DNA of 64,000 bases, from contig JAILRU010000135.1 in NCBI GenBank assembly GCA_024697945.1, forward strand, positions 1 through 64,000, given 5' to 3'. Below the pieces are notes generated by a model that worked only from the letters and a program-made list of their open reading frames with translations, searched no databases and was not told the origin of the DNA. Below, in pieces: positions 15,897 to 61,475 of the stretch (its first letter is position 1; every line of letters starts with the position of its first letter). The translations under genes were made by a program, and so were the position numbers. This DNA comes from Bacteroidaceae bacterium. GTDB taxonomy: Bacteria; Bacteroidota; Bacteroidia; Bacteroidales; Bacteroidaceae.

Positions 15897-15905
15897 CGAT
15901 ATATA

Positions 15906-15933
15906 ATTCAAAATTCAAAATTCAAAATTCAAA
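15906..15933. repeat. Heptanucleotide array ATTCAAA x4
   Basis: Four perfect 7-nt copies in the divergent intergenic region. Confidence 0.95.
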
Positions 15934-15957
15934 AATATAAGAATAGAAAATAATTAT

Positions 15958-18267: not shown

Positions 18268-18285
18268 AAAGTTTCAATAATCCTT

Positions 18286-18406
18286 GCTCTAAGGCTTCTC
18301 TAAGGCTTCTCTAAGGCTTCTCAGAGCATGCTCAGAGGATCGTCATAGGACCGTCATAGGATGCTCATACTCCAGAGGTATGAGAGCGGTATGGGCGCTA
18401 TGGGGT
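18286..18406. repeat. 11-nt-period intergenic array
   Basis: gctctaaggct|tctctaaggct|tctctaaggct|tctcagagcat|gctcagaggat|cgtcataggac|cgtcataggat|gctcatactcc|agaggtatgag|agcggtatggg|cgctatggggt. Confidence 0.9.
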
Positions 18407-18477: not shown

Positions 18478-18569
18478 ATAGTAATCCTATTGCTGAAAGA
18501 ATACTAATCCTATGCAGGAAGGAATAGTAATCCTTCAGTGGAAGGAATAGTAATCCTTCGAAGGTAGGG
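18478..18569. repeat. 23-nt tandem repeat x4 with internal dyad
   Basis: atagtaatcctattgctgaaaga|atactaatcctatgcaggaagga|atagtaatccttcagtggaagga|atagtaatccttcgaaggtaggg. Confidence 0.9.
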
Positions 18570-18630
18570 ATAGGACGCTAATGACAAAGCGACCTTTACT
18601 ATTCATTGACGTTAAGGTTTCTGGGTGGGT

Positions 18631-21375
18631 TTATTTCAGTATCTTCTTCCCGTTGAAGATGTAAACACCCTTAGATAATTTTGAATTTTGAATTTTGAAT
18701 TTTGTATTATCAAAGCGGCGGCCAGCGATATCAAAGATGGCACCCTCATTTTCCATTTTTAACTGTTCACTTTTGATTTCATCAATTCCGTCCTCAATGT
18801 CTTTCTCGGTTACGGTGAACTGGGGGCCTTCGGTGAAGACGGAGCCCACGTAGGCGGCGTCGATGGTCTGAACGCCCCATTTGTAGGTGCCGGGCTTCGC
18901 GGGAAGGAACGTCCACTCCGTCAGGCAACCAACACGTCCGAGGCGGTTCACCTTGCGGAGTCCGTCCTTCGTGCCGCCTATGATGGACGGCGTGCTGTTC
19001 ACAAGGTTGCCCTCTTCGTCCTTGATGTAAATCTCGTAGGTGTAGCCCGGGTGGGCTGTCTCTGGTGCCTGCCAGGAGAGGCGTGTCCTGCCGTCTTGCT
19101 TCGTGACAGTAGGAGCGAGCGGGGCATCGGGTCGCGAGGGGATGGGGTAGAGGTTGCTGCAAAGGATGGCATTGCGGCCTTCCTGCTCTGTGGTCAGGTA
19201 GTTCTTGTCCTTCGAAAAGCCATTGAGCAGGAAGTCTTTGCGTCCGTCGCCGTTATAGTCGGGGAAGATGATGCAGGCTCCTGTGGCTCCGGGGATGCTG
19301 ACGCTTCGTTTGAGGTGGCCCTTGCCGTCGTTGAGGTAGAGCATGCCGCTATAGGCATTCGACTTCGTGCCGCCAAGCATGATGTCGTAGTAGCCGTCCC
19401 AATTCCAGTCGATGACGCCTGCAGAGTTGCTTGCCGAAGAAGAGAGCGTGTAGAGGTCTGTCTGGAACTCGCAGGCGATGGGGCTGAACGAAGGCACGGC
19501 GGTCTGCTGGTTGAGGTAGATGCGCTGGCGTGTGGTCGATTCGCCGGAAGATATCTCGCCCTGTCCGGCCAGCATGATGTCGAGCCAGCCGTCATCGTTG
19601 AAGTCTGCCACCTGCAGTGCTCCGTTCGACTTGCGTTTGATTTCGCCATCTTTCTCGCCAAGTCCCAGACGGGTGAACTGATGCCCGTAGTTATTGGGGC
19701 TGTTGAGATAGACGTCGGTGAAGCGCAGCTGGTCTTCCTTCCCATCCACGAGGGCAGAGATGGCAAAGTCCTGAAAGCCGTCGTTGTTGAAGTCGGCGGG
19801 CTGTATGATGGCCTCACGGAGGAGGAAGCCGGGCTCGTAGGGCTCTACGGAGAAACGTAGAGTACTGACGTTGTCGGTGGTCTGGTTGTGGAGGATGACG
19901 TTGTAGTTCATCTCGCTCTGATGCCCCACGAGGATGATGTCGAGCCGTCCGTCGTTGTCAATGTCAATAACCTCTGCGTTGCATGGAGCCCTCCAATCAA
20001 AAGAATTGATAATTGATAATTGATGATTGATAATTAACTCCACGCTTGCTTCTTCGAACGTTCCGTTTCCTTTGCCCAGGAAGATGCCTTCGTGTCCATA
20101 GTTGCCGGCATAGGCTTCTTCGGTAACGTCATAGCCTGTCTGCTCGAAGGCGATGATGTCCATGTTCCCGTCGTTGTTGATGTCGCAGGGAACGAGGGAG
20201 GGAGAGTCTGCCACCTGGAAGGGTGGGGCGGTTGTGACTTTCACCCATCTATGGTTAGTAGAGTTAAAGGTTGCAAGGTAGGACATGCGCTTGCTCGTGA
20301 AATCGTCTGTGGCGGAGTTCTGAACAGTATTGCCGGAGCCACCGGTCACGATGTCCTGGCTTCCGTCGTTGTTCATATCTACGGTGACCGCTCCGCCGCG
20401 CTCAAAACCCCATTTCTTCGTGATGAGCTCGGGGCTGTAGGGAGCTGAGGTGGAGAGCGTTGGCCGGATGATGGGGTCGCCCAGCATCACGAGACTGCTC
20501 CCTCGTATCTGCATGGTGCCAATGTACATCAGGCGGTCGTGAACCGCCTCGGTGCTGTTATGGGCATGGAAAACGATGCGCAGCAGGCCCTCCTTGTCGT
20601 AGAAGAGCGAGTGGTGGCCTGTGCCTACGAGGTCGTCCCAGCGGCGAAGGATGGGATTGTTGTTATACTTCGTCCAATTTCCCGAAGCGATGTTCGTCGC
20701 ATAGGCATAGCCCACGGCATAGTCCTGACTGCGGTAGTCGTTGCCCGAGTAGGTGAGGAAGTAGCGATGGCCATTCTTAATGACATTGGGCCCTTCGTTG
20801 ACTTTGCCCATCTTGAGCTCCCAGGACTGGGATGCAGCGAAGCACATACGCAGGGTGCTCCCGATGGGCGTGATGAAGTCGTCGCTGAGCTTTGCCTGCC
20901 AGATGCAGTTACCGTCGGTGAAGCGGACAAAGAAGATGTAGGCAGTGCTGTCCTCGTCGATGAAGACGTGCGAGTCGATGCACTTCTCGCTTCCGATGAT
21001 GCTCTCCATCTGGTAGGAGCCTACTTGCTTGAAAGGTCCTTTCGGGGAGTTGGATGTGGCGGCAAAGAGGTGCTCGTTGGCGGAGTAGTACATGATGTAC
21101 TTGCCCTTGATGCGATAGACCTCGGGTGCCCAGAACCACTGGGTCTCGGTGGTGTTCTCCTTGTTCAGAGCCTGCCCCTCGTCCTTCCAAGTCCGCAGGT
21201 CGTCGCTCGAGTAGCAATGGATGCCACTGGCATCGTGGGTGCCGTAGGCATAGTAGGTGTCCCCGTCGAGCAGGATATACGGGTCGGCCAGGGGAATCTG
21301 ACTCTTCCCGCCCTCAGCTTTCACGAAGAGCGGGATGAGTAAAAGAATCCCCACTAAAAAGGATTGTCTGTTCAT
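18631..21375 (-). CDS. GH43-like glycosidase with VCBS/FG-GAP repeats and C-terminal sorting-like tail
   Basis: IPLADPYILLDGDTYYAYGT...WFWAPEVYRIKGKYIMYYSA; multiple DFNNDG/DINNDG motifs; tail FDIAGRRFDNTKFKIQNSKLSKGVYIFNGKKILK. Confidence 0.88.
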   Translation of the reverse strand: MNRQSFLVGILLLIPLFVKAEGGKSQIPLADPYILLDGDTYYAYGTHDASGIHCYSSDDLRTWKDEGQALNKENTTETQWFWAPEVYRIKGKYIMYYSANEHLFAATSNSPKGPFKQVGSYQMESIIGSEKCIDSHVFIDEDSTAYIFFVRFTDGNCIWQAKLSDDFITPIGSTLRMCFAASQSWELKMGKVNEGPNVIKNGHRYFLTYSGNDYRSQDYAVGYAYATNIASGNWTKYNNNPILRRWDDLVGTGHHSLFYDKEGLLRIVFHAHNSTEAVHDRLMYIGTMQIRGSSLVMLGDPIIRPTLSTSAPYSPELITKKWGFERGGAVTVDMNNDGSQDIVTGGSGNTVQNSATDDFTSKRMSYLATFNSTNHRWVKVTTAPPFQVADSPSLVPCDINNDGNMDIIAFEQTGYDVTEEAYAGNYGHEGIFLGKGNGTFEEASVELIINHQLSIINSFDWRAPCNAEVIDIDNDGRLDIILVGHQSEMNYNVILHNQTTDNVSTLRFSVEPYEPGFLLREAIIQPADFNNDGFQDFAISALVDGKEDQLRFTDVYLNSPNNYGHQFTRLGLGEKDGEIKRKSNGALQVADFNDDGWLDIMLAGQGEISSGESTTRQRIYLNQQTAVPSFSPIACEFQTDLYTLSSSASNSAGVIDWNWDGYYDIMLGGTKSNAYSGMLYLNDGKGHLKRSVSIPGATGACIIFPDYNGDGRKDFLLNGFSKDKNYLTTEQEGRNAILCSNLYPIPSRPDAPLAPTVTKQDGRTRLSWQAPETAHPGYTYEIYIKDEEGNLVNSTPSIIGGTKDGLRKVNRLGRVGCLTEWTFLPAKPGTYKWGVQTIDAAYVGSVFTEGPQFTVTEKDIEDGIDEIKSEQLKMENEGAIFDIAGRRFDNTKFKIQNSKLSKGVYIFNGKKILK
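18679..18705. repeat. Heptanucleotide array TTTTGAA (ATTCAAA family), coding
   Basis: Three perfect copies plus one partial, encoding the KFKIQNSK part of the GH43 tail. Confidence 0.9.
20005..20039. repeat. Heptanucleotide array ATTGATA x5 (degenerate) inside CDS
   Basis: attgata attgata attgatg attgata attaact; encodes ELIINHQLSIINS within the VCBS region. Confidence 0.9.
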
Positions 21376-22867: not shown

Positions 22868-25800
22868 TTATTTCAGTATCTTCTTGCCGCTTTGGATATA
22901 TATACCCTTTGGTAATTTACTATTTGACGATTTACAATTTACGATTTTCCGGCCGGTAAGGTCATAAACGGCATCATCATTTTGAATTTTGAATTTTGAA
23001 TTTTGAATTATTTCTATGCCTGTGCCGTTCTTCAGGATTTCTTCTGCGCGGTCGATAGCCTCACGCAGGGCTTGGCGGTCCTCGCTTGTGACGGAGTTCG
23101 CCGAGATGTGGGAGCGGAAGCTCTGGAGCTCTGTCTGCAGGGCATCGAAGGCTTCCTTGACCTCTGGCCTCTGGTAATAGGGTGAAGCTGCTTCGTCGAT
23201 GATGGCATTGTGCACTTGGAACTCACTCATGGCGAAGATGCGGCTGTCGGCACGCTTACCGAGGGTCTGCATGACCTGGAAACGCAGGAAGCGCGATGCT
23301 CCGTCGGTGAAGAGAACCGGCGAGGTGTAGCTTTCGCTGATGTTGGTGGGCAGGCCTTCCGTTATCCGAGCCACAGGCAGCAGGTTGCGCATGGTGGCTG
23401 AAGCCGAAACGATGATGTCCGAAGGAATGTCGGGCTGTCCGTATTCGGGGTTCTGCGAGGGGGTGAAGCTGAAGGCAAAGGCCTGGATGTCACCGCTGGT
23501 GCGAGCCTGGATGTAGGACATCTCGTCTGGCCATGTAATGCCGCTGTACCACGTCTCGTAGTAGGTGTTCGTCTTGCCGTCAATGAGCTTGGCGAGACTG
23601 TGCTCTTCCTGTTGATTGGTATTGGCGTTGGACGAGAGGTACGAGCTGGTGCGGATGAGTTTCGATTCTGTGTCTGCGTAGGCAACGAATGCTTTCCCAT
23701 AGGTCTGAATACCCTGCAGGAAGAGGTAGTCGGGCGTGTTCTCATGGACAGCCTGCTCGCCCTCTGCGGTTATTCCGTGTACGGCATCCTCAGAGGGCCT
23801 CAGATACTGGTTGGTGCGCAGCTGGAAGATGGCTCCACTGCCTCCTGAGTTCTGAAGTACAACGGGCTTCTCGCCACTTGGGGTGATGCCCACATACTTG
23901 CCGCCCGCATTGATGGTGAAGCCATCGCCGCTCTTGCTGAGGGTGATGGTCGTAGGAATGTCGGAGAGTGTGAGTTCGGAGCCATCTACGGAGAGATACT
24001 TACCTGTTCCCAGGTTGTAGAGGTAACTTTCGTTGTATTTCTCGGAGCGTAGAATCATCCAGTTGCAATAGGGGTCACTCACGCGGCACTTCTGGCGGTA
24101 GGCTTCGGGAGCCGTCGTGGAATTGGAGGCAGCAATGGAAAGCACTCCGTCAGTGGTGGCGATGAGGTCGCCGCGACCGGAAGCATTGTGGAGCTGATAG
24201 ACAGCCATAGGTGTGAAGCTCTCGGCCTTGGCAACCACTCCGTATGTGAGCGGCTGTGCCGTAGCGCCAATCTCTCGGATGGTTTCGCGGAGAGCATCGA
24301 TATCTGTGCAGGTGCCGTCGGCATAGACTGTGCGCAGAGGCTCAAGGTCGGCTGGTGCGTAGCCACCCCAGGCATCGGACTCCTCGAATATCTGTCGAGC
24401 GAGGTCAAGCAGGCTTCCGAGACGGTATTCGTGCTTGAAATAGAGCTCGTTGATGACAAGGTTGGACCCGTAGCCGGATGTGAAGCGCAGACGGAAGAAC
24501 TTGGCTGTGACAGGTTCCGGCAGGGTGACGGTGGGACTTTCGGTGTCTTCGATGGTGAGGCGCGAGGAAACAGTCGTCCAGCGACTCCCGTCTTCGGACA
24601 TGTAGAATGCCATCTGTTTGGCGCGGTATTTGCTTTCGCGGTTCTGATAGATTTCCAACGAGCTGACAGTGACGGGTTCGGGGGCCTCGAAGGTGAAGGT
24701 GTGGGGATAGCCTGCGGCATTGCTCTTCCAACGGTTGTGGTAGTATGAGCTTCGGTCGCCGTCAAGCATCATGGCAGCACGTCCGTAGTCGCCCTCTCCA
24801 ACGGTCTCCTCGTCGCTGAAACTGATGAGCTTCCATGTGGCCGGGTCGGAAACGGTGCGAGTGGTTTCGATGCGCTGCTTCATGGTCTTGGAATTGTAGT
24901 GGAGGACACCTTCATCCACGCGGCGCTCCAAACGAGCAATATTAATGGTATCTACCCAAGGCATCTCGCCCATCAGGGGAGGCTCGCAGGTGTTCGCGCT
25001 GTCGCGTTTGCCCATGTAGCCGCCTGTCTCCAGATAGAAGGTCTTGTCGTATAGCTGCGTAACACCGTGACCGAAGTCATAGCGGGAGTTGCGCGTGCCC
25101 TTGTTCTGGGTGTTGCCAAAGCCTGCATAATTCAAGGCGTACCATTGTCCGGTAGCTGCTGAGCGCATGGCTCCGTTGCGGAAGTAACAGCGGCGCATAA
25201 GCTCGCCGCCTGTATCGCCAAAGTTCTCAAGGAAGCTGTAGATGCCGCTCGTGAGGCGGTTGGCAGCTGCCATACGCAGAGTGCCCATGTAGTGCCAGTC
25301 GTTTTCCTCGGCCATCTTGTACCACACGGTCTGCAAAGTGCTCTCGAACTCCGAGACGCTGCCGTCCTCGTTGGTGACGCTGACAATGTCCGGACGTACG
25401 TTGTAGAGGAACTGTACCCAGTGGTCGAACTCCCATAGGTCGTCGCGGTTGTATCGGATGCTGGAACCCGTGCCCTCTCCGCCGAAGCGCGTGGCATAGG
25501 CATCCGGACCGAGATCAACGGCTCCGGCGCGCATGATGTCGGGCAGGCTCTTGTCCTTGTCCGTGTCGCCGTTGTCCCATACGGAGAAGAGGACCGTATG
25601 ACCGTAACTGCCGTCGCTGCGTGTGGGCATCTGTATGCCGGAGTACATGCCGTCGGTGCCGATAGCCATCTGGTAGGAGGCCGGTTGACGGTATGCACTG
25701 GGATACATTACCTCGAGGTAGGTCCAGTTGTAGCTTTGTCCCGACGGCGCTCCTGGAACCTTTGTGCTCCACCACAGATGTACGCTGGGAGCCATGAAGA

Positions 25801-26454: not shown

Positions 26455-28470
26455 TTATTTTACCAACACTTTCTTGCCGTTAACGATGTTGATGCCCTTC
26501 TGCATCTTCTGGAGGCGCTGACCAGCCATGTTGTAAATGGCTGATGTCTCATTTTGAATTTTGAATTTTGAATTTTGAATTGACTCAATGCCTGTTGCGT
26601 CATCATTACCAAACTTGAAGCAGAAGCCCTTAATCTCAGTCCCTTCGGGAACCTCGAGATAAGCCTTGCCAGCGGCGATGGTGCCACTCTCGGCCTTGTA
26701 GAAGCCTACTTCCTCGCCTTCGGGCTTAGCAAGAATGTACTTGCCGGCAGCATCGATGGGTTCGAGAGTACCCTTCAGGTCATTATCCTCAACAGCAGGA
26801 GCCCATTGCTTGACGAGGGCTTTATCACCGTCCACAGTTGTATCCTGGAAGATGTCCAGGTAATCACCATCAGGATCATTCTTGCCGTCAACTTCGAATG
26901 CGTAGGTGCCGGGAGTTCCCTTCAGGATGACAGCGGTGAGTGCAGGAATGGTTCCTTCAACCTCTGAGAGGGTCAGCCATTCGCCGTTAATCTTACCAGT
27001 GTAAGCCGTTACAGTTCCCGATGAACCGACAGTGCCAAGCATTGCAACTTGAGCGGTATTCAGAGCCTGGTTCCAGAAGCGAATCTCAGATGTTAACACT
27101 TCATTGTCTTCTCCGTCTTCATCTTCGAAGAGGTAGAAAGCATTACCAATGCCCCATTTCGAAAGCTGTGCAGAACTCTTGCCAACCAGATTGCCGTCAA
27201 CATAGACTTCTCCATACAACTCGTTAACTACAAATACAATGCGATACCATGTGTCATCTACCAGTGAGCCGTGGTAGTACAAGCCGGCGGAATTGATACC
27301 AATCTGTCCGTTGTGAACGAACAGGCCAGCGTCATTGGCGTTATCAAGATCGGTCTGGATAATAGCATTGTAGCTGACCACGTCAGGGAATTTGACATCC
27401 ATCATTAACGTGTAGCTATTGAGGGATTCCTCAGGGAGGTTTGTAGTCATCTTAAGACGGTCATCCTTGGGAATCGTGATGGAGCCGTCTTCATTAGCAA
27501 CGACACCAGAAGTGGCAGTCAGGGTGGCAGTGCCTGTCCCATTAATTGTACCGCCCTCGAATGTCCAAGCACCTGTTGTTTCAGGTACTATAACAGGTTC
27601 GGGAGCTTCTCCTGCAGCTTCTCCTTCTATTGTGCCAAGTGCTGCAACTTGCTTAGCATCGAAGGGAACATCCCAGAAACGGAGACCAGTCACCTTGATA
27701 TCCTTCTCCTCGCCGTCTTCGTCAGCGAAGAAGACTGCACCTGGGCCTTGCAGCAGCCAGTGCTTGTTGTAGGAGTCGGTGTGCTCGCAAGCGCTTAACA
27801 GCTCGCCGTCAACATAGAGGGCTGCCTTGTTGGGAGTGTCGATTACCAATACAACACGATACCACACGCCGGCACTGAAGTTGCCATTGTAGCCGAGAGA
27901 GCCGCCAAGACCCATCTGACCGTTCTTGATGAAGAGGCTGCCGTCCTTGCTGTCGGTCATACTGTTCTGCCAAAGTGGAGTGTAGCCGGTCATGTCGTCT
28001 GAGCAGATGTCGAACATCACGGTGTACTTGTCGAAGCCTTCTGCGCCATTATTGGTGTTCATGAGCAGGCTTGAGCCTTTGGGAATGTACAGGGCACCGC
28101 CTTCGAGTGTTGTGATGCCGGCTGCTTCAAGGCTTTCCTTTGTCTCAAGCCAGCCCTTGCCTTCGTTAGGGTCACCGTTCGTGCCGTGAATGGCAGGAGT
28201 GAGAGTTGCTGTGCCTGTACCTGCCAATGGATTATCGGGATCGTCGAATGTCCAGGCACCAACGGGTGTTGGAAGATCATCCGCACCAACAGGAACTAAA
28301 CCGGCAAATGTGATGGAGTAGGGCATGTAGGCCGTTGCATAACCGCTCTCGCCAATCGTCACGGTTGTAGTTGTTTTTTCATCTTCTGCCCATGCGGTGA
28401 AGGCAGCACACATCAGAGCTACGCACATAACGCCACGCAGCCTGAATAGGTTTAGTAGTCTTTGTTTCAT
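26455..28470 (-). CDS. Secreted protein with two LamG/concanavalin-like domains and sorting-like tail
   Basis: Two repeats of GAWTFDD.../GAWTFEGGTINGTGTATL...WYRIVFVVNELYGEVYVDGNLVG; tail IYNMAGQRLQKMQKGINIVNGKKVLVK. Confidence 0.8.
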   Translation of the reverse strand: MKQRLLNLFRLRGVMCVALMCAAFTAWAEDEKTTTTVTIGESGYATAYMPYSITFAGLVPVGADDLPTPVGAWTFDDPDNPLAGTGTATLTPAIHGTNGDPNEGKGWLETKESLEAAGITTLEGGALYIPKGSSLLMNTNNGAEGFDKYTVMFDICSDDMTGYTPLWQNSMTDSKDGSLFIKNGQMGLGGSLGYNGNFSAGVWYRVVLVIDTPNKAALYVDGELLSACEHTDSYNKHWLLQGPGAVFFADEDGEEKDIKVTGLRFWDVPFDAKQVAALGTIEGEAAGEAPEPVIVPETTGAWTFEGGTINGTGTATLTATSGVVANEDGSITIPKDDRLKMTTNLPEESLNSYTLMMDVKFPDVVSYNAIIQTDLDNANDAGLFVHNGQIGINSAGLYYHGSLVDDTWYRIVFVVNELYGEVYVDGNLVGKSSAQLSKWGIGNAFYLFEDEDGEDNEVLTSEIRFWNQALNTAQVAMLGTVGSSGTVTAYTGKINGEWLTLSEVEGTIPALTAVILKGTPGTYAFEVDGKNDPDGDYLDIFQDTTVDGDKALVKQWAPAVEDNDLKGTLEPIDAAGKYILAKPEGEEVGFYKAESGTIAAGKAYLEVPEGTEIKGFCFKFGNDDATGIESIQNSKFKIQNETSAIYNMAGQRLQKMQKGINIVNGKKVLVK
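26552..26579. repeat. Heptanucleotide array TTTTGAA x4, coding
   Basis: Four perfect copies at the tail junction of the LamG protein. Confidence 0.95.
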
Positions 28471-33386: not shown

Positions 33387-36300
33387 TTAATTGGGAAGGA
33401 TCTTTATTGCCCTTGTGCTTCCGTCTTCAAAAATCTCCTTGCGGATGATGACACCATTGGATTTACCATTCAACGATTTCCTGTCGACTAATTGACCGGC
33501 GACGTTAAAGTACTGTACGGCAACAAGTTTGGACGCAGTGGATGATGCAGGAATGTTCTCTATCTCGTTCGGGTCGTTCCAGTTGGCGGTGAGGTCGAGG
33601 AAGTCAGCCATTCCTATCTTGTTTGCCCTGTCTATGGTGGGCTGGTTCAGGATGGTGGCCATATTCCCGCCGTCGGGATACCTGCCGTAGGTCTGCCATT
33701 TGCCCTGTTCCATGTATTCCAAACAGTCCGTCCACGAGCCGTCTTCGGCTTGTATGCTGACACAGGCTCCATCTGCATTTTTCAGTTTGAAGGGCACATG
33801 CAGCTGGCTGATGGCATCCCTGTCGTCGCACCAGATGATGCGCGTCCCGTGAGCCGGTACAATTAAGTCTCCGCTCTTCATTCCTAATTCTTCATCCTTG
33901 AACTGGAACTTCTGCGGATTGTCGGGATCGTCGCTCAGGTAGAGTCCTTCTAAGCTGATGTCCTGGTTGGTTGTGTTGTAAAGCTCCACCCAGTCGGACT
34001 TCTTGCCATAATCGCTGATGTAGATGTCGTTGCCGGTGCTGACTTCGTTGATGCGCAAGGGCGAGGCTCCTGCCTCTATGCGTTCCTGTTCGTCTGTGAT
34101 AGGTGCGAAGATGGCCCGCAGTATCACGTTGCTGTTATTGCTATAGGTTTCGTGCAAGTCAAATACGTCTTCTGCGGCAATCGTTTCCCCGCCTTTGCTG
34201 GTCAGGGTCAAGTTGCCTTCAAACCACATGTCGGAACTGGTTGCCGAACTGTTCTTTGCCTCTACTGCTATCAGGTTGAGGCCGTCCACTAAATATTCAT
34301 GCGGGATGACGATACTGCCCGAGTAGGGGTATTCCCCCTCATAGTGCCCGCCAGTCGTATAGTCTCTGTACTTGGAGCCGCTATTGACATAGTAGCCGCC
34401 CACCTCATGACCGTTCACGTAGAGCATCATTCCGTCGTCTATCTGGTAGTTGAAGGTCAGGATGTCCGTGTCCAGGAGGGGAGAGTCCAGGTTGAAGGTC
34501 TTGCGGAAATAGTAGGTCGGACGCTTGCTGCTGCTATTGGAGCCATAGTTCAGTTTCGTGACGGAGTTCTCCTGCATGGGGTAGCCGTCATTGGCATATC
34601 CGAAAGGAGCTGTACCAGTGCGCCATCCGTTCTGCCCTTCATCAAAGCCGATGGATTTCCAATCGTAGTCGTCCATTGACCCTCGGTCGAAGTACATCCA
34701 TTCTGCGCCCAAAGGAATCAGGTCGGTTGTGGTGGCTGTCTGATTCTCCGTTCTCCATCCGGTGAAGGTATATCCGGCAGGCGCTTTGGCTGAAAGTTCT
34801 ATGGGTTGGTTGTGGTACGAGAAGAGGTAACCGGCAAACCGGCCTGTGGGTATCTCCTGTCCGTTCACGGCAAGCCGTGCTTCCGGAATGTTGGCTGAGA
34901 TGGTGGCATAGAGCTTGTAGCTTAGGCCATAATAGCTGCGCATGTTGCTGATACGGGTGCCGTTGTATGCATTGCGGATAGTGTATATCAGACTTGTGCT
35001 GGAGCTGCTGCCCTCGAACGACAGAGCAGGATTGGTGTTCTCGTAGATGTTCCAGATGATTTCCTGGCAACGAGTGGGTTCGAACACGCTGCCGTCCACG
35101 ATGCAGTAGGCATCCATGAATTGACGGCGGAAGGGGTCGTACTTCATCAGGTTGCGGAACAGGTCATCCACAGTGGTACCGCCGCTTGTGTTCAGTACAG
35201 ATGTTAGCATGTCGTCTCTGTCAAATGCCGATTCGACATCGAAGAGGACAAAGTGGAACTTGCCGTCCGAGCGGCTGCGGAAGCCCTTTACGTTGTTGGT
35301 GTTCGTTATCCAGTCCGACGGACCCATATAGCAGTCCAGCGCCATGTAGTTGATGTACTCGTCTATGTCAAGGAGTTCGCGTATCTCCTGATAGGTCTCT
35401 TCCGACTTTGTCTGAGCCAGCCGTTTCGCCAACGACAGCAACTTCTTCCAGGCCACGTCGTCGCCCATCTTCTGGTTATATTGTGCATTGCTCAGGTCGA
35501 ACTGGTCCATGTCGTCGAAGTCAATGCCGTAGTTGCTGTATGCAAAGTGCTTGTTGTTGCTCTCGCGTATGTTGAGCATGCCGTAGTAGTCTCCATTCAG
35601 GAAGACATGGGCCGGCTGATAGTCCTGACAATCCACGTAGAATCCGCTCTTCAGTACAATCTGCTGTAGGCCAGGGTCTTTTATGCGTTGGTATGTGTCG
35701 TTTCCGCCGTTGCGTACCTGCCAGCAGCGATATTTGTTGTAGGGTTTTGAGGGGAACACGGGATAGTCTATCGAATTCACTCCTTCGTACCGCTTGTCCG
35801 TCTTGATGCGGAAGGAACTCCGGGCTTCCCAATACCTGTCATCTACGTAGCCTCCTCCGTATGCCCTTGTCCAGCCGCCGCAGATTTCAAGGTCGGCCTC
35901 CTGATTCAAGACCATCTTCCAACCTCTGTCGTCCGTTGTCTGTTGACCGTCGTCTGTCGTCGATGGAATAATATATTCCATGTTTATAGGCCGTTCCCAG
36001 TCCATGTTCCAGTTGCAGGCAGTGCTCTGTCCGTTACCGCTAATGCCGTTAGACCCTCTCACGAAGACTCCCACCTTGTTGTCGAAGAAGTTCTTCGGTT
36101 CCGAACAGATGGACAGGATGGGCAGGTAGTAGTCGTGATTCTGATAGATGTAGCTGCGTGTCACGACGGGACTGGGCAGATACCCGTTCCTGAAGAGACA
36201 AAGTCGCAGGATTGTCGTGGAACTGATTTCGAAGCGACCGTCGGGACTTGTCTCGCCATTGGTGGCTGTCGGTGCACTGCCGTCGGTGGTGTATCGCAGG

Positions 36301-36914
36301 GTGGCAGCCCTTGGGATAGTCACCTGTACCGTAAGGCTTCCGCTGAAGACGCGGCTGTCCGTATCCACCACAGGAGCTCCCAGCCTGAAGGTGGCAAACT
36401 TGCTTGTGGTGTTTGTGGCTCCTGGCGTGGGGCTGCTGGTATATTCCCATTCGTCACCGCCATCCTGAGTGCGTGCCCAGGAACAACGGGCAATGGAGGG
36501 CGGGTAGTCAACGGTCGAGATGACCGAGAGGTCGGAAGCCAGCAGGCTGATGGTGCCGCCTTCCGGTTCCAGTTTGTAGGGAACCTGTCGCCGGGCATTG
36601 GATCCGTAGTTGCCTTCCGAGTAGTGGTGGTCGAACCAGAACGCTTTGAATCCATTTGCAGGCACATTGCCGTGAGCACTCTGGAAGCGCATGTCGTTCA
36701 CCCCGTCGCTCAGATGCATACCTGCGAGAGAGATGGCGGTGTCGTTCGGATTATAAATCTCTATCCAACTACCGTAACAATTGGCATTGTCCAGAAACTG
36801 ATCCAGGTTAGCAACCTGAACCTCATTGATTATCAATGTTTTATCTGCCGTTTCCTGTGCCAGCATAAATGCAGGAAAAAGTAGCAATAGAAGGCTGATT
36901 ATGTAGTTTCTCAT
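33387..36914 (-). CDS. CotH-kinase family secreted protein with lamin-tail domains
   Basis: LIINEVQVANLDQFLDNANCYGSWIEIYNPND (LTD); VFLNGDYYGMLNIRESNNKHF...DWITNTNNVKGFRSRSDGKFHFVLFDVESAF (CotH); TLRYTTDGSAPT. Confidence 0.85.
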   Translation of the reverse strand: MRNYIISLLLLLFPAFMLAQETADKTLIINEVQVANLDQFLDNANCYGSWIEIYNPNDTAISLAGMHLSDGVNDMRFQSAHGNVPANGFKAFWFDHHYSEGNYGSNARRQVPYKLEPEGGTISLLASDLSVISTVDYPPSIARCSWARTQDGGDEWEYTSSPTPGATNTTSKFATFRLGAPVVDTDSRVFSGSLTVQVTIPRAATLRYTTDGSAPTATNGETSPDGRFEISSTTILRLCLFRNGYLPSPVVTRSYIYQNHDYYLPILSICSEPKNFFDNKVGVFVRGSNGISGNGQSTACNWNMDWERPINMEYIIPSTTDDGQQTTDDRGWKMVLNQEADLEICGGWTRAYGGGYVDDRYWEARSSFRIKTDKRYEGVNSIDYPVFPSKPYNKYRCWQVRNGGNDTYQRIKDPGLQQIVLKSGFYVDCQDYQPAHVFLNGDYYGMLNIRESNNKHFAYSNYGIDFDDMDQFDLSNAQYNQKMGDDVAWKKLLSLAKRLAQTKSEETYQEIRELLDIDEYINYMALDCYMGPSDWITNTNNVKGFRSRSDGKFHFVLFDVESAFDRDDMLTSVLNTSGGTTVDDLFRNLMKYDPFRRQFMDAYCIVDGSVFEPTRCQEIIWNIYENTNPALSFEGSSSSTSLIYTIRNAYNGTRISNMRSYYGLSYKLYATISANIPEARLAVNGQEIPTGRFAGYLFSYHNQPIELSAKAPAGYTFTGWRTENQTATTTDLIPLGAEWMYFDRGSMDDYDWKSIGFDEGQNGWRTGTAPFGYANDGYPMQENSVTKLNYGSNSSSKRPTYYFRKTFNLDSPLLDTDILTFNYQIDDGMMLYVNGHEVGGYYVNSGSKYRDYTTGGHYEGEYPYSGSIVIPHEYLVDGLNLIAVEAKNSSATSSDMWFEGNLTLTSKGGETIAAEDVFDLHETYSNNSNVILRAIFAPITDEQERIEAGASPLRINEVSTGNDIYISDYGKKSDWVELYNTTNQDISLEGLYLSDDPDNPQKFQFKDEELGMKSGDLIVPAHGTRIIWCDDRDAISQLHVPFKLKNADGACVSIQAEDGSWTDCLEYMEQGKWQTYGRYPDGGNMATILNQPTIDRANKIGMADFLDLTANWNDPNEIENIPASSTASKLVAVQYFNVAGQLVDRKSLNGKSNGVIIRKEIFEDGSTRAIKILPN
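35923..35964. repeat. Heptanucleotide array inside CotH CDS
   Basis: cctctgt cgtccgt tgtctgt tgaccgt cgtctgt cgtcgat; encodes STTDDGQQTTDDRG. Confidence 0.85.
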
Positions 36915-36985: not shown

Positions 36986-37017
36986 TTTGGTAATTGTTGA
37001 AAAAATCACTAACTTTG
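36986..37017 (+). promoter_or_regulatory. Canonical Bacteroidetes promoter directed into the 37.1-kb array
   Basis: TTTG-N20-TAACTTTG; no convincing ORF of its own before the next promoter. Confidence 0.65.
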
Positions 37018-37100
37018 CATCAAGATATCGATTTGTCTTTGCGGAGTTGTTTGTAAAGATTCGATGGTATCAATCCCTCAATATTTTCCAAGAAAATCCC

Positions 37101-37364
37101 AGACCAAGTCTATACCAAGTCTATACCATCTCTATACCAAGTCTATACCAACTCTATAGCCCCTCCACTCCCTCTCTGGTTCCTCTCATGTTGCCCTCAT
37201 GTCGCTCTCATGTTGCCCTCATGTCGCTCTCATGTTCCCCTCTAATCGCTGTCTAATTCTATATATTAGAGGAAATATAGAGAAAGAGTGGAGGGAACTC
37301 GGAGAAAACATGGAGGGGACATGGAGAAAAGATGGAGGAAACATGGGGTGAACGTTGATTAAAA
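37101..37364. repeat. 24-unit 11-nt-period array with pyrimidine-rich left and purine-rich right half (imperfect giant inverted repeat)
   Basis: agaccaagtct|ataccaagtct|ataccatctct|ataccaagtct|ataccaactct|...|tgttgccctca|tgtcgctctca|tgttgccctca|tgtcgctctca|...|atggaggggac|atggagaaaag|atggaggaaac|atggggtgaac. Confidence 0.93.
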
Positions 37365-37459
37365 ACAGCAGAAACCTAAATTACTTAAAAATAAAAGAGT
37401 TTTGTTTTGTAGTGTGAATGCTTTTTCGTAACTTTGCGGCGCAAACTAAAGAAATTGCC

Positions 37460-40400
37460 ATGAAGAGAGTACTTACATTATTAATATTATGCGTTTTCGC
37501 ATGTATGGGTTTCCTTCCTTCGGTAGCATACGCTGATGCACCTGTCGAGGATGGTGTGTATTATATCTCCAATACTTCAGTGGAAGGATATCTGGGCTTG
37601 GGGTCCTACCACAGTGTTGCCCCCTTCATCTATTATGTGACCGACGGGCAGGAGATGACAGCTGATGCCTATTGGGTGGTGACAAACACACGGTCGGGCT
37701 ATACCTTCCGCAACGAAGCCACAAATGAGTTGCTTGTCTTCACTTATGACCGCATTGACCAGTACTACAAGTACATGACGCTGGCATCCGAGGCTCCTGA
37801 TGACCATTCTCAATACTGGAACATCATAGAGGGCGACGATGGGGCGGTATGCATTCAGAGTGCCTATGATACCGACTATTACTGGAACCTTCGCAGCGGA
37901 ACGAACATGATGGGGACCTATAGGGGAAGTTACGGCTCGGGTGCAAACGAGCGCTATGTCTTTCATAAGAAGGGTGAAAAGCCGGACATCGACCCTGACC
38001 CCGACCCCTCCACGGTGATGCCGACCTTCCCCAAGGCGTTGCATGTCTATCTGAACGACGGACGGCTTGAAGCCTATCCCCTGGAGTATGTGACAAACTA
38101 CTCGGAGGTTGACGGTAAGCTGAACATCGAAACCAATCTCAACTGGACCTATAAGTACGACCTCTCCTTGGTGGATTCGGTGAGCGAGAATACGCCTACT
38201 GACTTCCCCACCTTCGAGACATACAAGTTCAATAACAGTTTCAACGACCAGCTCTTCACCACTGCCAATGGTGAAATAGTGGGCGATACGGTATTTGTTA
38301 CGCTTGCTGCCATAGGCAAACGCCTGACCCCCTCGTTCAAGGTGGCAGACGAAACTGTGGAAGCCTATGTGGATGAGAAACTCCAGAAGAGCAAGGAGAC
38401 CCGCCTGCGTTTCGACAAGGACATTTATTATATCGTGGCCAGGAAGGGGTGCAAGATACTGACCCCCGAGGCGGACGGCAAGTATTTCCTGAAACCTTAC
38501 GGCCGTTATGTCCGCGTTCATGTCGATTGGCTGACAGACCGTGCCGAAGTGCCTACCATCTATATCAATACTGCCGACGGACAGGCTATAACCAGCAAGG
38601 ACTACTTCAAGGATGCTACCATCAGCATCGACGGTCACGGCATCTTCCCCTCGATGGAAGAGACAGCCATGCAAATCAAGGGTAGGGGAAACAGCAGCTG
38701 GGGCTGGCCCAAGAAACCCTACCGCATGAAGTTCGAAGAGAAAGTGAAACCCTTGGGCATGACCAAGGGTAAGAACTGGGTGTTGCTGTCCAACTACCAG
38801 ACGGGCTCGCTGATGTCGAACGCCGTGGGCATGAAGGCTGCCAACTTGATGGGCGCTGCTGCCGCCAACCACATCGTGCCGGTGGACTTGTACCTCAACG
38901 GCGAATATCGCGGCAGCTACAACCTGACGGAGAAGGTGGGCCTCGCAAACAACAGCGTTGATTTGGATGACGAGACGGCTGCCGCCCTGCTGGAGCTTGA
39001 CTCCTATTACGACGAGCCATCGGGACAGAAGTTCCGCTCCAGCCCTTACAACCTGCCCATCAACATCAAGGAACCTGAGTTCGACGAAGGCACAACCTCC
39101 CTCACGTTGGAGATGATACAGAACGACTTCAATGGCTTCATGAAGACGCTCAAAAACGCAGGTGACATCTCGCGCCACGTCGAAGTGGACCCGTTGGTGC
39201 GCTTCCTCATGGTGAACGAGCTCATCTGCAACTTCGAGCTCTACCATCCCAAGAGCACGTTCTGCTACCGCGAGAGCTTCGAGGCCGACACCAGTAAGTA
39301 TGTCTTCGGACCTGTCTGGGATCTCGACTGGGGCTTCGGCTACGAGCAGCACCGCAGCTACTTCAAGGACAACATCACCACCAACTACTGGACTAAGATG
39401 CCCAACATGGAGGTGATACAGTTCATTCAGGACCTCCGATGGAACTACGAGCCGATGTGCGACCTCTACAAGCAACTCTGGAAGAAGTTCATGGACAACG
39501 ACCTGCAGGAACTGATGGAGTACTGCCAGGACTACTACGACTTTGCCCACAACTCGTTCGACAGCAACCGCGATGTTTGGGGCGACAGGACGAACTATGC
39601 GCAGCAGGCCAAGGATGCAGCCAACTGGTTGCAGCAGCGTTCCCAAAAGATTTACGAGGATATCCTCAACGACGTGCGTCCTCCCAAGCCTGAACCGGTT
39701 GATCCTGTCGAGTTTGCAAATGACAAGCTCTACACCCTCACCTGTAAGCGTGGCGAACTGATACTCAGCTATGACTATCAGGGACTGGAGGCAGGTCAGA
39801 GCGCATGGTGGACAGTGGAAGACTATGAGAAACAGTTCGCCATCATCAACATCGAGGGTAACAACTACCTCTACAGCCCCCACCTGAAGAGCTACCTGAG
39901 AACCGGCTATGCCTCAAACGGCGAATGGGTGAAGCAATTAGGATCGCCCATCTACTTCGACACAAATAACCCAGACGGGAAGTACCAGTTCATGATAAGC
40001 ACGCTCACCGACTACGGAACGACGCTGTGGTTCAATAACAATTCTAGCACAATCGTCATCAACTCATGGAATACACCTGACGACGGAGACCGGTGGTACA
40101 TAGCAGAAGTGGGTGACTTCGACCCGACGGAGGCTCTGGAACTTGCTCAGGCCGACCTGCTGGCCATAACCATTAATCTTATGTATGACGGTGAAGTCAT
40201 TGCTACAGTGACAAAGGATCTGCCTTACGGTGCAGATATGCCAGAGCCACCAGCTGAATGGAGCAACGCTTTTGTGACGCTGGAGCCTGTTGGCATACAT
40301 CCGTATATGGTCACAGAGGAGACGACCATTGCCTACGAAGCTGAGTGGGTGGGTCCCTTCGACTTTACGACCTCGTTGGAAGACTCAAAGTGGTACAACA

Positions 40401-40924
40401 TGACCATCCGCTCGGACTACATGGTGGGCAAGACGGATTCAGAGCCCTACTATCCCGTAGCGGTGGATGACTCGGATACGCCGTACTTGTTAACCTATCA
40501 GTGGGCTTTCGCCGGTAACCCTTATAAAGTAAAGGTATATAACCGTTCCACAGGATTGGACGAAGTGCTGACGCTTGTTGGTCAGGACGGCGTTATGCGT
40601 CCTGGTGATTACGAGTGGGAGATACTGCCCAACCGAGACGGCTTCGTGCTCCGCGTGCCTGGCTCGGGCACTTGGTGTCTCAATCAGTTCGGTGGCGGTG
40701 GTGGTCCTCTTCGCTATTGGGACAGTCAAAATAGCCTGACAGATAATGGTTCCACCTTCCGTGTGACAGAGGCGCCAGATCCGGACGGCATTGTTGAAGT
40801 CCATAGTTCAGAGTCCATAGACCATGGTTCTGCTGTCTATGACCTCAGCGGACGACGCATTGATAATCGTAAGTTGTCTCAGGGCATCTACATTGTCAAT
40901 GGAAAGAAAATTGCGATTAAGTGA
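37460..40924 (+). CDS. CotH-kinase family secreted protein with lectin-like module and sorting-like tail
   Basis: MQIKGRGNSSWGWPKKPYRMKF...GPVWDLDWGFG; own promoter TTTG-N19-TAACTTTG just upstream places the start at 37460, not 37418. Confidence 0.88.
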   Translation: MKRVLTLLILCVFACMGFLPSVAYADAPVEDGVYYISNTSVEGYLGLGSYHSVAPFIYYVTDGQEMTADAYWVVTNTRSGYTFRNEATNELLVFTYDRIDQYYKYMTLASEAPDDHSQYWNIIEGDDGAVCIQSAYDTDYYWNLRSGTNMMGTYRGSYGSGANERYVFHKKGEKPDIDPDPDPSTVMPTFPKALHVYLNDGRLEAYPLEYVTNYSEVDGKLNIETNLNWTYKYDLSLVDSVSENTPTDFPTFETYKFNNSFNDQLFTTANGEIVGDTVFVTLAAIGKRLTPSFKVADETVEAYVDEKLQKSKETRLRFDKDIYYIVARKGCKILTPEADGKYFLKPYGRYVRVHVDWLTDRAEVPTIYINTADGQAITSKDYFKDATISIDGHGIFPSMEETAMQIKGRGNSSWGWPKKPYRMKFEEKVKPLGMTKGKNWVLLSNYQTGSLMSNAVGMKAANLMGAAAANHIVPVDLYLNGEYRGSYNLTEKVGLANNSVDLDDETAAALLELDSYYDEPSGQKFRSSPYNLPINIKEPEFDEGTTSLTLEMIQNDFNGFMKTLKNAGDISRHVEVDPLVRFLMVNELICNFELYHPKSTFCYRESFEADTSKYVFGPVWDLDWGFGYEQHRSYFKDNITTNYWTKMPNMEVIQFIQDLRWNYEPMCDLYKQLWKKFMDNDLQELMEYCQDYYDFAHNSFDSNRDVWGDRTNYAQQAKDAANWLQQRSQKIYEDILNDVRPPKPEPVDPVEFANDKLYTLTCKRGELILSYDYQGLEAGQSAWWTVEDYEKQFAIINIEGNNYLYSPHLKSYLRTGYASNGEWVKQLGSPIYFDTNNPDGKYQFMISTLTDYGTTLWFNNNSSTIVINSWNTPDDGDRWYIAEVGDFDPTEALELAQADLLAITINLMYDGEVIATVTKDLPYGADMPEPPAEWSNAFVTLEPVGIHPYMVTEETTIAYEAEWVGPFDFTTSLEDSKWYNMTIRSDYMVGKTDSEPYYPVAVDDSDTPYLLTYQWAFAGNPYKVKVYNRSTGLDEVLTLVGQDGVMRPGDYEWEILPNRDGFVLRVPGSGTWCLNQFGGGGGPLRYWDSQNSLTDNGSTFRVTEAPDPDGIVEVHSSESIDHGSAVYDLSGRRIDNRKLSQGIYIVNGKKIAIK
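40801..40828. repeat. Heptanucleotide array (CCATAGT family), coding
   Basis: ccatagt tcagagt ccataga ccatggt at the CotH tail junction. Confidence 0.7.
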
Positions 40925-50351: not shown

Positions 50352-53215
50352 AACGTCTCCTCCTCATTCTCTATTCTTCATTCTTCATTCTTCATTCTTC
50401 ATTCAGTCCTGCAAGGGCGCAGAACCCTGACAGCCTTACCTTCGCTGTGCTGGGCAACTCCATCTCGACCTACTATGACTATATCCCTTCCGGCTACGCC
50501 ATCTACTATACAGCGGACCGCGAGAAGACCTATGGCATACAGGTAGGCGACACATGGTGGATGCAGCTCAGCCGTCTCTCGGGACTCACTTTCCTTGCCA
50601 ATGCCTCGTGGAGCGGCAGTCGCGTGTCGTGCGATTTGCTCAACAGCAAAGCCCCATTCCTCAGCAATGAGCGCGTGAAAGCCTTGGGACGAGCCGGCAA
50701 GCCCGACTTCATCTTCATCGCAGGCGGTACCAACGACTGGAACCAATCCAAAGTGCCTTTGGGCGAGTACCGTACGAAGAACTTCACCGACTCCGTCACC
50801 TTTCGGGGAGCATATCAGCGGCTCCTCTTCAAACTCACGACGTGGTATCCGCAGGCTCGCGTAGTCTGTCTGGGCATCTTCCCTCGGGGGAACGGTGTCA
50901 ATGACAAGAATTCACAGGGATGGTCGCAGGCCGATGCCAATGCCAGCATCAAGTACATTGCAGAGCAGTTTGGCCAGTACTATATAGACTGTACCAACGT
51001 CCCCTGGAGCAACGACTGGGCGGCATATACCCTCGACAGGCTTCATCCCTCGGCAGCTGGTGCCACACTGCTTGCCCAACACATCACCAATGCCATGTTA
51101 TCCCAGGGAATCATCACGCGCGACCTGAAGCGTTCCAACGAAGTGGAGGAGGCAGAACGCCTGTTGGACATCAGCTTCACCGCCGATGGCATTGTCAATC
51201 AGGGCACCTATGCCGCCAAGGTCGGTAAGCACGGCACAGCCACAACCTTCTACGATGCCGCTCGCGACACCTACTACGGTTGCTCCAAGGCACGCGCCTC
51301 AGACTACTACTATGCCACCTACGACGAGGGCTCACCCTTGGTCAAAGCCTTCAACAGCAGCGTGACGTGGGAGATGCTCGTGCGCCTTGACGCCCTTGCC
51401 GACCAGAACGGCAACATCAGCCGGACCTGCATCCTTGGTAACGAGGAGAACGGCGGCTGGGCTTTCTACAACTCCGAACTGGCAAGCAGCTTCTGCTACC
51501 AGAACAAGAGCGGCGTGAAGAGCAGCATGAAGAGCATCACCGGCGACTCCATCCTCCTTTCCGGCAAGTTCTACCACCTGGTTGCGACGATGGACCGTAT
51601 GAGCCACATCATGCGCTACTTCATCAACGGCAAGCTCGTCTGCACCAGCACCCGTGCTGGCTCAGACATGACGATGCCCCAGTGCGGCACCACCAAGGGA
51701 CGCAAGGGCATGTGGATATGCCTTGGCGGAGATGCCACGTCCGGCTCGGTCAACAACGGAGCCGAGGGATCTTCCGCATGCAGCTTCGTCTTCGCCCGCA
51801 TCTACGACGGCGCCCTTTCCCAAAAGGCGGCCACGGCACTCTATAACGACGACGTCAAGCGGTTCACCGAGCCGCAGACACCCTACGGAACTGAACTCCT
51901 CATGGATTGCGAGTTCACCCCCGACGGAGCCGTCAACCATGCACCCTCCTTCGGGGACAGACCTATAGTCATGATGGACACCGTACAGATGCGCTACAAT
52001 GCCGACATTAACCACTATGAAGCACAGTTCAACGATATCAGGTCGGAGTTCTTCAAGTACCAGCTGGGCGACGACCCCGCAATCATGAGCCAGCTCACCG
52101 ATGCCTACAGCGTCGAGGTCTTCTGCCGCAGCAGCGAAGCCCTGCCCACCACCAGCATCCGTCCACTCAGCTTCGTCAACGGCTATGGCTTTGGTCTGCA
52201 GATGAACAACAGGGGCAACATCGGCTACACCACCACCACGCAGGGCAACAAGGCCGACGGCACCTTTGCCAAGACCCAGTGGTCGTGGATAGGAGCGGGA
52301 AACCTCACTGCCGACTATACCCACTATGTCATCGTCTATGACCGCAAGAACTACCGTTCGCAGTTCTACGTGAACGGCGAGCTGGCCGATACGCGCTGGC
52401 TGACCTTCAAGGAGTGTCCCGTTTACGAATGGGCACCAACCACGTGGCTGTCCATAGGTGGCGATGCCGTGGGAACTTACGAGCAGACATCCTCCGTGGG
52501 CAGCTATTCCTTCATGGGCGATGTGGCATTGGTACGCGTCTATGGCAATGCGCTGAGCAAAAACCAGGTCCAGAGCCTCGCAGGCATCCTGAGCACACAG
52601 GAGATGACATACACCCTGGGGACCAACGGCTATGCCGCCGTCTGCCTGCCCTACATCTGGCAAGTGCCCGAGGACTGTACAGCCTATATCATTACAGAGA
52701 TAGCCTCACCGTCTGCCATGCTGACAGCCATCGCCGCTACAGGAGATTATGTCCCCTACGGCACACCCGTCTTGTTGAGCGGCCCCGCAAAAGCTCAGGT
52801 CACCCTGACAGCCCAGAACAAGGATGAAGTAAGTGAAATGGTAAATGATAGTTGGTCAAATGGTAGTTGGCAAAATCTCTTGGTAGGAACCTATCCAGGC
52901 AAGACGCTTGATGCTGGCGAGGGTTATTATATGAGGACTACGGGCACGAGCATCTATCGGGCCACAACCCCTGTCGCCTTGCCTCCGTTCAGTTGCTACC
53001 TGCCTTCAGCTGAAAAGCGGTCACTATTCAAGCTCGAAGAAGCAGAGACAGGCATTGAATCAATTCAAAATTCAAAATTGAAAATTCAAAATGACGATGC
53101 CGTCTATGACCTCACCGGCCGGAAAATAGTAAATAGTAAATCGTCAAATAGTAAATTACCAAAGGGGCTCTACATCCAGAACGGAAAGAAGATATTTGTA
53201 AGAAGCAACGACTGA
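50348..53215 (+). CDS. SGNH/GDSL-like hydrolase with LamG domains and sorting-like tail
   Basis: LTFAVLGNSISTYYDYIP...IFIAGGTNDWNQ...LDRLHPSAAG; LamG blocks; ATGA overlap with preceding gene. Confidence 0.85.
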   Translation: MKRLLLILYSSFFILHSSFSPARAQNPDSLTFAVLGNSISTYYDYIPSGYAIYYTADREKTYGIQVGDTWWMQLSRLSGLTFLANASWSGSRVSCDLLNSKAPFLSNERVKALGRAGKPDFIFIAGGTNDWNQSKVPLGEYRTKNFTDSVTFRGAYQRLLFKLTTWYPQARVVCLGIFPRGNGVNDKNSQGWSQADANASIKYIAEQFGQYYIDCTNVPWSNDWAAYTLDRLHPSAAGATLLAQHITNAMLSQGIITRDLKRSNEVEEAERLLDISFTADGIVNQGTYAAKVGKHGTATTFYDAARDTYYGCSKARASDYYYATYDEGSPLVKAFNSSVTWEMLVRLDALADQNGNISRTCILGNEENGGWAFYNSELASSFCYQNKSGVKSSMKSITGDSILLSGKFYHLVATMDRMSHIMRYFINGKLVCTSTRAGSDMTMPQCGTTKGRKGMWICLGGDATSGSVNNGAEGSSACSFVFARIYDGALSQKAATALYNDDVKRFTEPQTPYGTELLMDCEFTPDGAVNHAPSFGDRPIVMMDTVQMRYNADINHYEAQFNDIRSEFFKYQLGDDPAIMSQLTDAYSVEVFCRSSEALPTTSIRPLSFVNGYGFGLQMNNRGNIGYTTTTQGNKADGTFAKTQWSWIGAGNLTADYTHYVIVYDRKNYRSQFYVNGELADTRWLTFKECPVYEWAPTTWLSIGGDAVGTYEQTSSVGSYSFMGDVALVRVYGNALSKNQVQSLAGILSTQEMTYTLGTNGYAAVCLPYIWQVPEDCTAYIITEIASPSAMLTAIAATGDYVPYGTPVLLSGPAKAQVTLTAQNKDEVSEMVNDSWSNGSWQNLLVGTYPGKTLDAGEGYYMRTTGTSIYRATTPVALPPFSCYLPSAEKRSLFKLEEAETGIESIQNSKLKIQNDDAVYDLTGRKIVNSKSSNSKLPKGLYIQNGKKIFVRSND
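50373..50407. repeat. Heptanucleotide array ATTCTTC x4 in signal-peptide coding region
   Basis: Four perfect copies plus attcagt, encoding YSSFFILHSSFS. Confidence 0.95.
53063..53155. repeat. Two heptanucleotide arrays flanking the GRK tail core, coding
   Basis: attcaaa attcaaa attgaaa attcaaa (53063-53090); agtaaat agtaaat cgtcaaa tagtaaa (53128-53155). Confidence 0.9.
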
Positions 53216-54517: not shown

Positions 54518-54638
54518 TACCGATGTCATACCAAATGACGGTCTGATTACTACCAGCATATGGTACGACCAATACCACCTACTGGTACTGCCAGTACCAA
54601 ATTCTGGTACGGATAGTACCACCTGCTGGTACTTTAGA
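54518..54638. repeat. 11-nt-period array with alternating TACC / GGTAC units
   Basis: taccgatgtca|taccaaatgac|ggtctgattac|taccagcatat|ggtacgaccaa|taccacctact|ggtactgccag|taccaaattct|ggtacggatag|taccacctgct|ggtactttaga. Confidence 0.93.
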
Positions 54639-61401: not shown

Positions 61402-61475
61402 GGCGGGATAGCTCAGCTGGTTAGAGCGTCGGATTCATAATCCGGAGGTCGTGGGATCGTGACCCACTCCCGCTA
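61402..61475 (+). tRNA. tRNA with CAT anticodon (Met-type)
   Basis: GGCGGGA acceptor pairs TCCCGCT; D-arm GCTCAGCTGGTTAGAGC; anticodon loop TTCATAA; T-arm GTGGG-ATCGTGA-CCCAC. Confidence 0.95.

Follow-up and report, generated by a model that had tools for sequence, protein, structure and literature searches.

A widely scattered intergenic unit that very probably makes a noncoding RNA of 11-base repeats in rumen-type Bacteroidales

Little is known about the noncoding RNAs of gut and rumen Bacteroidota. In type III toxin-antitoxin systems (ToxI-ToxN), a promoter is followed by a tandem-repeat RNA, with repeats of about 36 nt in ToxI, and then by a small protein gene. The BrickBuilt elements of Porphyromonas gingivalis are made of 23-nt repeats and bounded by similar terminal inverted repeats that are related to the ends of IS elements; promoter activity has been shown for them, one copy is listed as putative sRNA35, long stem-loops are predicted, and the searches of their authors confined them to P. 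gingivalis (PMC4596501). FopS and GibS of Bacteroides thetaiotaomicron are multicopy noncoding RNAs from canonical sigma-ABfr promoters (PMC11697453, PMC7366714), FopS being about 65-70 nt long with a seed for susC mRNAs (PMC11697453). For rut sites, the published descriptors are C>G and a spacing of about 11-13 nt between successive C or YC (PMC6407284; PMC9160355).

A rumen-type Bacteroidales bacterium carries, in the 545-nt intergenic gap between two of its genes and within a 64-kb stretch of DNA that was analyzed whole (the window), a unit of ~330 bases that very probably makes a noncoding RNA of 11-base repeats. Judged from sequence comparison, the probability that this unit (36986-37350) is a single copy of a dispersed, self-contained noncoding-RNA gene is roughly 70%, and the prediction of a stand-alone RNA is itself well supported by the relatives. 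The family is widely scattered and apparently undescribed. Rfam held no family above its gathering threshold for the element, a literature search confined to open-access papers returned nothing relevant on 11-nt or 11-bp repeats in Prevotella or Bacteroidetes, and neither source appears to contain a multicopy RNA family with its own promoter and a strict 11-nt register.

Like BrickBuilt, the unit is intergenic and dispersed and consists of leader, tandem repeats and tail in a Bacteroidales genome; BrickBuilt, however, lacks the 11-nt register, the conserved order of promoter, hairpin and core, and the neighboring DUF6266 genes. Multiple copies and a canonical sigma-ABfr promoter recall FopS and GibS, but the RNA predicted here would consist of 11-nt repeats over ~330 nt, with no excess of sites complementary to its core outside arrays, and the FopS sRNA family was rejected on length, repeat content and the missing target excess. 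The order of promoter, tandem-repeat RNA and small protein gene resembles the type III toxin-antitoxin layout, whereas most elements here have no protein gene; membership was rejected, since the window element precedes cotH and DUF6266 has no ToxN-type match. With rut sites the unit shares C-rich, G-poor stretches of >78 nt with C at ~11-nt steps (PMC6407284, PMC9160355). Rut sites, by contrast, are not conserved repeats with a promoter and leader hairpin of their own, and the YC phasing of the present arrays does not exceed a composition null.

Promoter and layout of the unit

The promoter lies where the initial annotation had placed it, on the plus strand at 36986-37017 and pointing into the array, with a -33 TTTG (36986-36989), N20 and a -7 box TAACTTTG (37010-37017). 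Downstream of the element, and outside it, a cotH-like gene (37460-40924, plus strand; CotH kinase domain, Pfam PF08757, E 2.9e-27) has the separate promoter also proposed for it (37406-37436, plus strand), in which TTTG (37406-37409), N19 and TAACTTTG (37429-37436) end 23 nt before the ATG at 37460. The upstream neighbor, likewise outside the element, is a divergent CotH/lamin-tail-domain gene (33387-36914, minus strand; PF08757, PF00932). Both promoters match the published sigma-ABfr motif, TAnnTTTG at -7 and TTTG near -33 (PMC7366714), which for the first bears out its earlier assignment to the Bacteroidetes -33/-7 consensus. Strict TTTG-N19..21-TAnnTTTG occurs at only five sites on both strands of the 64-kb window, two of them in this 545-nt gap; one of the others is 37 nt upstream of a tRNA at 61402 and two are near minus-strand ORF starts, so that all five sit in plausible promoter places. 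In 2000 dinucleotide shuffles of the gap, the mean was 0.0055 strict sites, and no shuffle contained two.

From the predicted transcript start (~37024), the plus strand encodes a putative leader hairpin (GATATCGA...TCGATGGTATC; 37024-37071), assigned from arm-pairing permutations, and then a C-rich, G-poor leader that includes a first degenerate unit (37072-37109). The core array (37110-37164) consists of five 11-nt units, CTATACCAAGT/CTATACCATCT/CTATACCAAGT/CTATACCAACT/CTATAGCCCCT, with the consensus CTATACCAAST that is common to several Bacteroidales genera. It passes into a variable array (37165-37252) of 11-nt units (CATGTTGCCCT and relatives) in unchanged register, with C-T|C kept at positions 10-11-1. 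A central hairpin, TCTAAT...ATTAGA (37241-37272), is seen in sequence and fold and has counterparts in the terminal hairpins of relatives; the 3' arm (37269-37350) is purine-rich and also built of 11-nt units (GGAGAAAACAT), its minus strand being a C-rich array. Blocks of 11-nt units were delimited at 37103-37158 and 37185-37242, with the purine-rich inverse block at 37269-37346. Over 400 kb of stretches from this genome, period 11 yielded 11 arrays and periods 9, 10, 12 and 13 yielded 0-4.

The segment 37024-37364 folds with z = -2.3 against shuffles, in line with the structured RNA predicted earlier. No ORF of constant frame or length crosses the core among the copies compared, and an array-encoded peptide was rejected because open stretches vary in frame and length between copies.

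Comparison with array-selected relatives

Relatives were collected by scanning contigs for three phased CTATACC units. The 97 stretches found include many from rumen Bacteroidales, several of them from one genome; others come from unrelated taxa and look like chance or other repeats. Removal of near-duplicates left 42 with a Bacteroidales-type core, and exclusion of L021 of Dawidia soli gave the 41 elements kept, of which 39, mostly from rumen Bacteroidales, had enough upstream DNA for the promoter test. This genome holds three CTATACC-core elements; a fourth array, L004, has only CTCATGTT units in common with them, and a CTATACC element also occurs in the same-genus genome G033. Since the relatives were chosen by array sequence only, their upstream features provide an independent test.

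TTG-N19..21-TANNTTTG was found 65-125 nt before the array in 20 of the 39 relatives, with exactly N20 in 17, against ~0.004 expected per element from the background of the same loci and two on the opposite strand. Alignment of the relatives gave TTG-N20-TATCTTTGCA, after which the leaders are similar in length. The position and spacing of the promoter are thus kept in relatives selected by the array, supporting a dedicated promoter. The initial annotation had proposed checking whether the promoter is conserved where the array is; its recurrence in these 20 supports that annotation, but the other 19 lack the -7/-33 motif, so not all elements have a promoter of this type.

An AT-rich perfect palindrome (ATATAATTTATAAATTATAT, ATATATTCTTC...GAAGAATATAT or GTATATTATTC...GAATAATATAC), varying in sequence with its pairing kept, occupies the leader position of motif-less elements (L029, L030, L031, L036, L039, L044, L051, L052, L056, L072, L097, L100 and L112). 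As it replaces the motif in most motif-less relatives, these may use another start signal.

Downstream of the -7 box, leaders form stems of differing sequence, such as GGCTTATAA/TTATAAGC, GGCTTAAAT/ATTTAAGCC, GGGTTATAA/TTATAACCC and GTCTATA/TATAGAC. Pairing between the two arms of the same leader scored 18.8 in 19 leaders vs. 13.9 for swapped arms, and 17.5 vs. 13.3 in the 14 dissimilar leaders; in neither set did any of 5000 permutations reach the observed value. The leaders of L024, L048 and L067 are exceptions, scoring no higher than swapped arms when fixed zones were scored. This preference for a leader's own arm is evidence of selection at the RNA level on the sequence following the promoter, and it gives good support to a leader hairpin maintained by compensatory changes, by pairing rather than by sequence.

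The first units of the relatives are near CTATACCAAST, partly a product of how the elements were selected, and later units are variable, with positions 10-11-1 (C, T, C) the most conserved. C exceeds G in all 39 elements, the C/G ratio being ~2.9 over the 95-nt leader plus core. In elements with a terminal hairpin, pairing of the 3' arm is better with the array of the same element than with swapped ones (0/5000 permutations). Without the central 28 nt the same test gave 47/5000, a weaker result than that for the leader arms; the automatic search misplaced some hairpin centers, including that of the window element.

In the MAG Tb.RUG.517, the sequence common to five copies runs from the -33 region to a little beyond the terminal hairpin, after which the copies part. 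Genome G013 keeps the divergent gene pair of the window (81% and 74% identity) without the array; only 140 nt separate the two starts there, vs. 545 here, and its cotH retains a promoter of its own. The shared extent of the five copies and the pair without the unit together mark array plus promoter as a discrete unit. As to terminal inverted repeats and a target-site duplication, no sharp ends were seen in the five-paralogue alignment, and the flanks of the array-free G013 site were too diverged for a duplication to be found.

The element also stands apart from its neighbors. A convergent gene lies downstream in at least 14 of the 37 elements with a callable neighbor, as judged by a simple longest-ORF rule by which single cases may be wrong, and the upstream gene is oriented 19:19; at least 14 elements facing a convergent gene exclude a general 5'-UTR role of the array. 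Elsewhere in the genus, cotH orthologues have no array, yet keep a promoter at the equivalent place. The earlier contention that cotH does not need the first promoter therefore stands, given its own promoter here and in the array-free orthologues, and on the same grounds we rejected the array as a cotH 5' UTR dependent on the upstream promoter. The promoters of relatives, the discreteness of the unit and the convergent genes all favor the reading put forward by the initial annotation, in which a dedicated promoter would drive a noncoding RNA.

Candidate partners and competing readings

Transcription would start near 37024 from the sigma-ABfr promoter, and the RNA would open with a hairpin in which pairing and not sequence is conserved, followed by a G-poor stretch, about five CTATACCAAST units of 11 nt and further 11-nt units of variable sequence in the same register; many copies would close with a terminal hairpin and a complementary purine-rich arm. 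Such a C-rich RNA could serve as a multivalent platform, and the mechanism we favor would have it bound by a protein that forms a ring or a filament and reads one 11-nt step at a time. This platform reading, with Rho as the best named candidate partner, is tentative and well short of an even chance; DUF6266 or another protein is the alternative partner. No intrinsic terminator was found at the element end, and we infer that the transcript ends near the array end, separate from the cotH mRNA. Rho would end the transcript without an intrinsic terminator and would let the element insulate its neighbors on both strands.

A Rho gene is present in this genome. By C-minus-G excess over 78 nt, the plus strand at 37097 ranks within the top 0.04% of windows and the minus strand at 37271 within the top 0.02%, and the element has C>G over at least 70-78 nt, as rut sites do. 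At 37097, YC is in phase in 10 of 10 positions, as at only a few array loci in 400 kb. Across 27 array halves, however, in-phase YC was not above a column-shuffle (unit-position) null (Wilcoxon p = 0.11). It is no higher than composition plus periodicity gives, which leaves the case for Rho in particular weak, and YC phasing was dropped as a proof that Rho is involved. The near-invariant CTATACC core suggests a sequence-specific partner over generic rut chemistry. The complement of the core is no commoner outside arrays than a control pattern, which speaks against a simple antisense role, and antisense to other genes was rejected. Should Rho prove to be the partner, the arrays would count as natural rut sites of unusual regularity, in a phylum where Rho itself shows unusual behavior.

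The unit might instead be a bidirectional Rho-type terminator or insulator that presents a C-rich phased half first on each strand, its short transcript being a by-product. The window element does show the C-rich half first on both strands, and similar arrays that lack a promoter separate convergent genes at 18.27-18.4 kb and in L120. A terminator would have no use for a dedicated promoter and leader hairpin, however, and with in-phase YC not above the composition null we regard this explanation as doubtful.

DUF6266, a protein family of uncharacterized function, is encoded directly downstream on the same strand, at a distance of 116-386 nt, in 12 of the 41 elements and divergently in two more, and the sole DUF6266 gene of this genome stands behind one of its three CTATACC elements. 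With no intrinsic terminator at the array end, these positions would suit a regulatory 5' leader (attenuator or protein-binding) that evolved upstream of DUF6266, solo copies, including that of cotH, being leaders or remnants. Against this stand the elements that face a convergent gene (at least 14), the promoter of cotH itself, here and in array-free orthologues, and an array of CTCTCACTCAA in G085 (L172, about 784-978) that lies upstream of the promoter of a DUF6266-like gene, so that the array is not always in the leader of the DUF6266 gene. We consider the leader explanation unlikely.

The same adjacency would also fit a two-part system with a type III toxin-antitoxin layout, in which the array RNA is a substrate, inhibitor or guide of DUF6266 and many RNAs are orphans. 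A survey of 120 related genomes showed few carriers of either DUF6266 or the CTATACC core in the genus; DUF6266 occurs in G000, G006, G033 and G085 and CTATACC elements in G000 and G033, the two thus coinciding in G000 and G033. Of a further 22 DUF6266 genes from the order, nine are preceded within ~0.7 kb by an 11-nt array of other sequence, vs. two 11-nt arrays in 383 kb of control DNA from the same genomes, a control that spans more than intergenic DNA and so overstates the enrichment by some factor without removing it. However, DUF6266 belongs to no known RNA-binding or nuclease family and had no padloc, PDB-sequence or PHROG match, its medium-confidence predicted structure (pLDDT 70.6) gave only generic FN3-like matches, in the C-terminal half, on which no argument rests, and most solo elements have no DUF6266 nearby; we consider a two-part system improbable. 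Searches for DUF6266 on phages or plasmids and in the literature yielded none and nothing relevant, respectively.

A broader possibility, also doubtful, is a Bacteroidales-wide RNA-protein system in which 11-nt-repeat RNAs with their own promoter and leader hairpin would act with DUF6266 proteins, each unit corresponding to one turn of an A-form helix; the DUF6266 genes of other families, likewise near 11-nt arrays of other sequence, would fall within it. The recurrent association offers a first handle on this protein family. In another family of the order, a near-perfect long hairpin of 11-nt units (L185, 1253-1364; CAACTCCAGTACAGGTCCAGTACAACTCCAGT and its complement) lies upstream of a DUF6266 gene.

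A purely DNA-level element with an incidental promoter (an imperfect-palindrome minisatellite, MITE-like repeat or iteron-like array) is very unlikely, for although its copies would be dispersed, multicopy, intergenic and imperfectly inverted as observed, with an array-free orthologous site in G013 and a precedent in BrickBuilt (PMC4596501), it would predict neither the position and spacing of the promoter nor the arm-specific pairing of the leader.

Other repeats in the window and genome

Apart from the predicted RNA gene, a second 11-nt array lies in the window at 18265-18376, with a downstream half to ~18430, and consists of CTCTAAGGCTT three times and then CTCAGAGCATG, GTCATAGGACC and further units. 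It is promoterless, stands between convergent GH92 and GH43-like genes and closes with a hairpin, CTCATACTCCAGAGGTATGAG, that strongly resembles the terminal hairpin of L045 in Tb.RUG.517; possibly this is a relative truncated at its 5' end that works as a terminator. Counting the two in the window, 400 kb of this genome hold nine period-11 array loci (the others being L118, L120, L121, L123, L127, L133 and L135), all intergenic and differing in unit sequence; many are strongly C-rich on one strand (C/G 5 to 14) with an imperfect-palindrome layout.

Heptamer repeats (AATTCAA, ATTTTGA, TCATTCT) occur at 15905-15934, 18677-18708, 20004-20035, 22979-23009, 26551-26581, 50364-50404 and 53062-53092. 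Periods 7 and 14 are also common across the genome sample, a phenomenon separate from the 11-nt arrays. Further intergenic repeats have periods of 23 nt (ATAGTAATCCTATGCAGGAAAGA; 18478-18573) and of 22 nt, twice 11 (TACCACATACTGGTACGACCAA; 54551-54632).
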